A DNA stretch of 64,000 bases. Origin: Styela clava (Eukaryota > Chordata > Ascidiacea > Stolidobranchia > Styelidae). The notes beneath the pieces were generated by a model. It was not told where the DNA came from. It did not search any database and saw only the letters and a list, made by a program, of their open reading frames with translations. The DNA lies in assembly GCF_964204865.1 (NCBI RefSeq), contig NC_135252.1, forward strand, positions 23,581,383 through 23,645,382. The letters run 5' to 3'. Both the position numbers and the translations under genes were made by a program. How positions within the stretch are numbered: position 1 is the stretch's first letter; the number at the start of each line of letters is the position of its first letter. Shown in pieces: positions 50,649 through 50,730 of this stretch.

Positions 50649-50730
50649 CGCTGCGAGCAGGGTTCGAACCTGCGCGGGAATATCCCATTGGATTTAAAGT
50701 CTAACGCCTTAACCACTCGGCCATCACAGC
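50649..50730 (-). tRNA. Ser-type tRNA with TTA anticodon, T arm intact
   Basis: Loop CTTTAAA reads UAA. Box A, box B (TTCGAAC), acceptor, long variable arm, discriminator G, TATA-like flank and T4 stop are all present. The only other change seen is an A29-C41 mismatch (aagtctaacg). Best candidate in the window for a natural ochre suppressor. Confidence 0.83.

Follow-up and report, generated by a model that had tools for sequence, protein, structure and literature searches.

The window, i.e., the whole 64,000-nucleotide stretch that was analyzed (C3:23581383-23645382), lies inside a tandem tRNA array that runs from 23490244 to at least 23735282 on C3, hence over at least 245 kb, with its far end beyond the scan. 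The repeated unit measures about 1046 bp, carries five slots (SerC, Arg, SerB, SerA, and Gly), and is arranged head-to-tail. ARAGORN called 259 tRNA genes in the window, all on the minus strand (138 Ser-TGA, 49 Gly-GCC, 44 Arg-TCT, 16 TTT, 5 TTA, 3 GTC, 3 TGT, and 1 ACC), and Rfam yielded 302 tRNA matches. The scan of the window and its neighbors (275 kb) gave 958 ARAGORN tRNA genes, 946 of them minus-strand and the other 12 plus-strand, and these counts are low, above all for Gly, as 4,982 bases in 69 runs were not readable. Genome-wide searches covered the 376.6-Mb assembly of 379 contigs. The features discussed below are collected in Table 1.

Table 1. Positions in the window of the array, of the unit holding the tRNA-Ser(UUA) gene, and of related copies
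Feature	Position	Strand	Remarks
Tandem tRNA array	1-64000	minus	tRNA calls; fills the window except for the LINE insertion (~43916-48855)
1046-bp unit holding the reported gene	50313-51358	minus	
SerC slot of this unit	51075-51156	minus	
Arg slot of this unit	50860-50932	minus	
tRNA-Ser gene, SerB slot, anticodon TTA (reported copy)	50649-50730	minus	ARAGORN, Rfam, and sequence reading
SerA slot of this unit	50517-50598	minus	
Gly slot of this unit	50373-50443	minus	
TATA-like element, TATACC	50750-50755	minus	~25 bp upstream (about -25); identical in slot consensus
Box A	50712-50723	minus	slot consensus TGGCCGAGTGGT retained
A29	50702	minus	private among 117 units; faces C41 at 50690; breaks an anticodon-stem pair
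Anticodon TTA	50695-50697	minus	TGA in slot consensus; change of G35 to T at 50696
Box B	50660-50670	minus	GGTTCGAACCC, undamaged in this copy
T4 terminator-like run	50640-50643	minus	identical in slot consensus
Minimal recombination (gene-conversion) tract, putative	50616-50666	minus	unit 693-743, three non-GA markers
Sister copy, TTA with C56G/G57A in the T loop	34197-34278	minus	ARAGORN and sequence
Sister copy, TTA with C56G/G57A	37335-37416	minus	sequence equal to the 34197 copy
Sister copy, TTA with C56G/G57A	39427-39508	minus	sequence equal to the 34197 copy
Sister copy, TTA with C56G/G57A	42564-42645	minus	sequence equal to the 34197 copy

Several features accompany the regular units. 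A Gly-tRNA-like remnant was recognized by eye at ~50950-51000, beside the Arg slot, and may represent a sixth slot that has decayed. At C3:23666272-23668635, a stretch of about 2.4 kb is inverted, and the 12 plus-strand tRNA genes are found there. The LINE (non-LTR retrotransposon) inserted in the array is seemingly full-length, with an open ORF1 (44100-45098, matching Baculo_FP_2nd) and an open ORF2 of 987 amino acids encoding an endonuclease and a reverse transcriptase; it has GAATCT repeats at its 3' end and GAATCCC flanking it on both sides, and the search with ORF2 found 481 relatives in a set of 7991 scored candidates. Another tandem tRNA array is present on C2 at ~9327000-9462700; its period, judged from the 10 kb that were read, is near 1297 bp, and it contains Ser-AGA and Phe-GAA genes on opposite strands, as well as one Phe-AAA variant.

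Structure of the tRNA-Ser(UUA) gene

The gene at 50649 is labeled by ARAGORN as a tRNA 'Stop' with anticodon tta and scores 60.2 bits against the Rfam tRNA model, versus 64.5 bits for undamaged Ser-TGA genes at this slot. Together with the reading of the sequence itself, both calls identify a complete tRNA with the anticodon UUA, so that the gene claimed in the preliminary description is real, and so is the single change at G35 by which it departs from its slot. Boxes A and B are both at consensus and provide a Pol III internal promoter, and the retention of the upstream TATA-like element and of the T4 run was likewise described correctly. A special upstream element at this gene was ruled out, the element being the same as in the slot consensus. 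The serine identity elements, i.e., the long variable arm, C11-G24, and G73, are all present by sequence reading.

The anticodon stem is a different matter. A29 places an A-C mismatch in a stem that opens with two A-U pairs, and the stem is consequently not intact. The cloverleaf with A29-C41 was predicted at -22.7 versus -29.3 kcal/mol, i.e., 6.6 kcal/mol weaker, with an altered minimum free energy structure, and the anticodon arm of this copy taken alone was unfolded, in a folding model that takes no account of modified bases or tertiary contacts. In the same model, the combination of TTA with the G-A change of the sister copies described below left the folding energy unchanged. The mismatch had been listed earlier as the one visible flaw of the gene; it is indeed there, but it is severe, and A29-C41 is by model prediction a serious flaw, of the structural kind by which tRNA pseudogenes are recognized.

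Sister copies and the history of the TTA allele

The TTA anticodon occurs in nine genes of the 275 kb scanned, five of them inside the window (34197, 37335, 39427, 42564, and 50649). With nine copies in the array, a single-copy TTA gene was ruled out. Exact patterns searched genome-wide found eight TTA places, every one in the array, the ninth copy differing within the patterns. In eight of the nine copies, the T loop, a segment that doubles as box B, has G-A in place of C56-G57, giving GGTTGAAACCC or GGTTGAAGCCC versus the slot sequence GGTTCGAACCC; the ninth is the 50649 copy, with its A29-C41 mismatch. In yeast SUP4, binding of TFIIIC was reported to fall 370-fold with C56G and 56-fold with G57C (PMC11811891, accessible text). 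Because of these losses, the eight copies are by analogy probably poorly transcribed.

To place these copies within their slot, 439 similar places were collected, of which 223 were kept as slot-B copies (at least 90% identity to the slot with its flanks) and 216 were dropped; the latter we infer to be mostly other Ser slots. The anticodons of the 223 copies are 208 TGA, 9 TTA, 3 TGT, 2 CGA, and 1 TAA. Under lesion rules of our own (23 pairs, 13 conserved positions, and deletions), 82 of the 208 TGA copies are free of lesions, as against none of the 9 TTA copies and none of all 15 non-TGA copies, counts that carry no P value since they are not independent, the eight copies with TTA and G-A probably sharing descent and all nine perhaps representing one or two TTA histories. 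C56G by itself is more widespread, being found in 41 of the 223 copies, 32 of which have the TGA anticodon. Slot B is also the only one of the Ser slots with an intact consensus. That of SerA has three lesions (A1-C81, G59-G73, and C at 18, in gene positions) and that of SerC has four (A10-C25, A at 18, T at 37, and T at 67, in gene positions), and no anticodon variants were seen in either slot among 117 and 116 units, respectively.

The order in which the changes arose can be approached through the units themselves. The 1141 BLAST pieces include many overlapping cross-matches between slots, so that only 117 near-full units from the 275 kb were aligned, with partial units left out and no unreadable bases in the aligned ones. 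TTA is present in 8 of them and G-A (hereafter GA) in 22, with 7 units having both and 15 of the 22 GA units lacking TTA. Since GA occurs without TTA on the same haplotype, the sequences suggest that GA is probably older than TTA.

In this alignment, 14 positions separate GA units strongly from the others, and at these positions the unit at 50313-51358 is a mosaic. Upstream of box B, it agrees with the GA lineage at 8 of 10 markers (the exceptions being 194 and 578, the latter with a private base). At 693 and 694, which lie in box B, and at 743 it carries the non-GA allele, and at 1028 it agrees with the GA lineage once more. Comparison by segments gives a similar picture. Over unit positions 441-663, the ten nearest units to the reported one are GA units; over 664-770, there are zero differences from three non-GA units (at 1757, 16045, and 90260 relative to the window start); and over 771-1046, the 14 nearest units listed include 12 GA units, a non-GA unit sharing the nearest rank. 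One edge of the tract falls between 50666 and 50696, and the other may fall anywhere from 50616 to 50331. Judging from these alleles, the ordinary-unit stretch would start between the anticodon and box B and end at some point from 743 to 1028 of the unit. The resumption of GA-lineage sequence past box B leans mainly on the one marker at 1028. Based on this pattern, recombination, best described as gene conversion, probably placed a good box B on the ochre allele.

It is unlikely, though deserving of consideration, that the TTA of the 50649 copy had an origin of its own or was joined to the good box B by a crossover instead of a conversion. Such an origin would fit the absence of the GA change from the gene, its private A29, the three changes that the flank tree needs for TTA, and the fact that past position 743 a single strong marker points to the GA lineage. 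The GA-lineage alleles at most upstream markers and the exclusively GA neighbors over 441-663 speak against it, and the flank tree is compatible with one TTA origin as well, a single origin being neither settled nor rejected by it.

Constraint on the array and the significance of the ochre anticodon

Diversity along the unit gives little sign of selection on the tRNA genes. Mean diversity is 0.041 in slot B versus 0.0465 in the spacer, a value that the mask matches or undercuts in 32% of its 1046 circular shifts, and for the five tRNA slots together it is 0.0403 versus 0.0465 (6.9% of shifts as low), in tests whose power is reduced by concerted evolution. The 15 anticodon sites are non-consensus at 0.0268 per site versus 0.0281 overall (P 0.55 against random 15-site sets), and the variability of the G35 site is equaled or exceeded at 89 of the 1046 unit positions, the site itself counted in. 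The array on C2 served as a control, and there six units from a single 10-kb stretch gave 0.0079 for a Ser slot versus 0.0286 for the spacer; in the same six units, the Phe slots showed 0.0133 and 0.0356, and a weak Ser slot, roughly placed, showed 0.0524. These mixed values come from a sample too small to establish the power of the diversity test. There is no measurable constraint on the array copies. Weak constraint is possible because all five slots are slightly less diverse than the spacer. The G35T change is what drift yields in such an array; the complete tRNA itself is not a product of chance.

Genome-wide, two exact patterns (with another start or stem) found no tRNA-Ser(TGA) outside the array: the first, narrow pattern matched only inside it, and the only match of the second, on C4, is at a site that has no tRNA. 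Copies of the array type may still exist elsewhere in the genome. Judging from these matches, tRNA-Ser(UGA) may well come mainly from the array, and lesion-free copies are therefore argued to be active, so that it would be unsafe to regard the array as silent throughout.

Considering these results, we propose with good confidence that the 50649 gene is a variant of the B-slot tRNA-Ser(UGA) in a redundant, partly degenerate tDNA array and that its altered anticodon is effectively neutral. The proposed course of events would start from the redundancy of the slot, with many of its 223 counted copies structurally lesioned, and from a box-B-damaged sub-lineage (C56G, G57A) that exists with the normal TGA anticodon. 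Most parsimoniously, a single G35T then arose in that lineage, where it would have been harmless because the damaged box B leaves the gene hardly transcribed, and unequal exchange would have multiplied TTA to at least eight copies. In the 50313-51358 unit, as its mosaic pattern suggests, a stretch of an ordinary unit would have replaced the damaged box B, probably by gene conversion, and left the TTA in place; the private G29A of this copy breaks the anticodon stem. A tRNA made from it, if transcribed at all, would likely be poorly folded and unstable, and the outcome would probably be no or negligible suppression of UAA. The sequence is real, its anticodon was rightly read, and its cause is an ordinary one, the gene being in all likelihood a drifting variant in a redundant array.

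The preliminary description went further and presented the gene as a candidate natural ochre suppressor. That it works as such, being transcribed, charged with serine, and causing low readthrough of UAA, we consider quite improbable. The premise of this reading is sound. According to the accessible text of PMC6827378, the anticodon does not specify serylation, the variable arm is the key element, and C11-G24 contributes too, so that recognition of tRNA-Ser is independent of the anticodon, and serine-inserting ochre suppressors function in other hosts, an ochre tRNA-Ser being active in transgenic mice (PMC8244042) and another being in use in yeast (PMC4022180), as far as the consulted parts of these papers go. 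The undamaged internal promoter, terminator, and serine identity elements of the 50649 copy are in line with activity, and its good box B, unique among the TTA copies, was seemingly regained, which leaves a small chance of weak activity. Against this stand the A29-C41 mismatch, the damaged box B of the eight sister copies, the unconstrained anticodon sites, and the position of the gene as one among 223 counted of its slot. With redundant damaged copies, unconstrained anticodons, a broken stem, and damaged sister promoters, suppressor activity of this copy, as judged from its sequence, is possible and unsupported.

An extension of this reading, which we regard as a long shot, would make the array a nursery in which stop anticodons arise and multiply free of cost on copies silenced at box B, with conversion occasionally re-arming one of them. 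The 50649 copy would then be a re-armed one, with low transcription and weak insertion of serine at UAA, restrained by its stem mismatch. The sheltering idea can be tested in other large tDNA arrays by setting stop anticodons against promoter damage for each independent lineage.

A sequencing or assembly error at the anticodon is very hard to believe: long near-identical repeats do assemble poorly, but the identical change occurs in nine places in units that differ elsewhere. That UAA is a serine sense codon in the host can practically be dismissed, having nothing in its favor beyond the TTA gene itself, with TTA rare among the slot copies (9 of 223) and, as weak evidence, a 987-codon LINE frame without an in-frame stop, TAA included, and a first LINE frame that ends at TAA.

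An active gene, in contrast to the neutral variant proposed here, would amount to natural ochre suppression encoded in a nuclear genome with, as far as seen, the standard code, and would show how such a suppressor is tolerated by a cell. As we read the case, its lesson is that calling a suppressor anticodon is not evidence of suppression. It also serves as a worked case, in which the sister copies suggest that the allele grew on promoter-damaged genes and in which recombination can restore a promoter.

Comparison with known systems and other anticodon changes

Yeast SUQ5, which is the same as SUP16, carries a UGA to UUA change. This suppressor and the mouse sup-tRNA-Ser resemble the 50649 gene in being serine tRNAs that read UAA and have their identity outside the anticodon. 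These laboratory ochre suppressors were, however, selected or built and are active, whereas the 50649 copy has a broken stem and sister copies with damaged promoters, and is known from its sequence alone. Closer in kind are the 'possible suppressor tRNAs' of genome annotation, whose TTA, CTA, or TCA anticodons are likewise called from sequence. Such calls are common in tRNA annotation, as the accessible texts of two sources indicate: predicted suppressor tRNA genes made up 1,325 of 331,242 nuclear tRNA genes in 256 plants (PMC9126412), and two suppressor tRNA calls were made in yerba mate (PMC11709435). Unlike in the annotated cases as presented in the accessible part of PMC9126412, the array reveals here the history of the copies, their sisters, and the state of their promoters.

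Tandem units bearing tRNA genes are also known from Entamoeba (PMC2652664), for which concerted evolution has been offered, and from the human 1q23.3 array with its 7.3-kb units (PMC4041453). The Entamoeba paper, in its accessible part, describes no clear pseudogene copies, whereas here two of the three Ser slots are damaged in their consensus and many copies are lesioned. Anticodon changes in eukaryotic tRNA genes, including those in clusters, have been described (PMC3923123, PMC7919458); in the accessible texts, the published shifts are between species at orthologous places, while those seen here are between copies of one array and include a stop anticodon. In searches of mainly the open literature that were not aimed exactly at this point, and in the accessible parts of the sources, we found no report of a stop anticodon spread through a tandem tRNA array by exchange between copies.

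Anticodon changes are not confined to slot B. Among the 117 aligned units, the Arg slot has TTT in 17, and the Gly slot has a non-consensus anticodon in 14. The change from Arg-TCT to TTT (Lys by call) was found 16 times in the window (e.g., at 3351, 4789, and 49814) and 42 times in the 275 kb, and is commoner than the TTA change. A change from Gly-GCC to GTC (Asp by call) occurs 3 times in the window (9989, 18198, and 62922) and 11 times in the 275 kb, and the further changes in the window are three from Ser-TGA to TGT and one from Gly-GCC to ACC.
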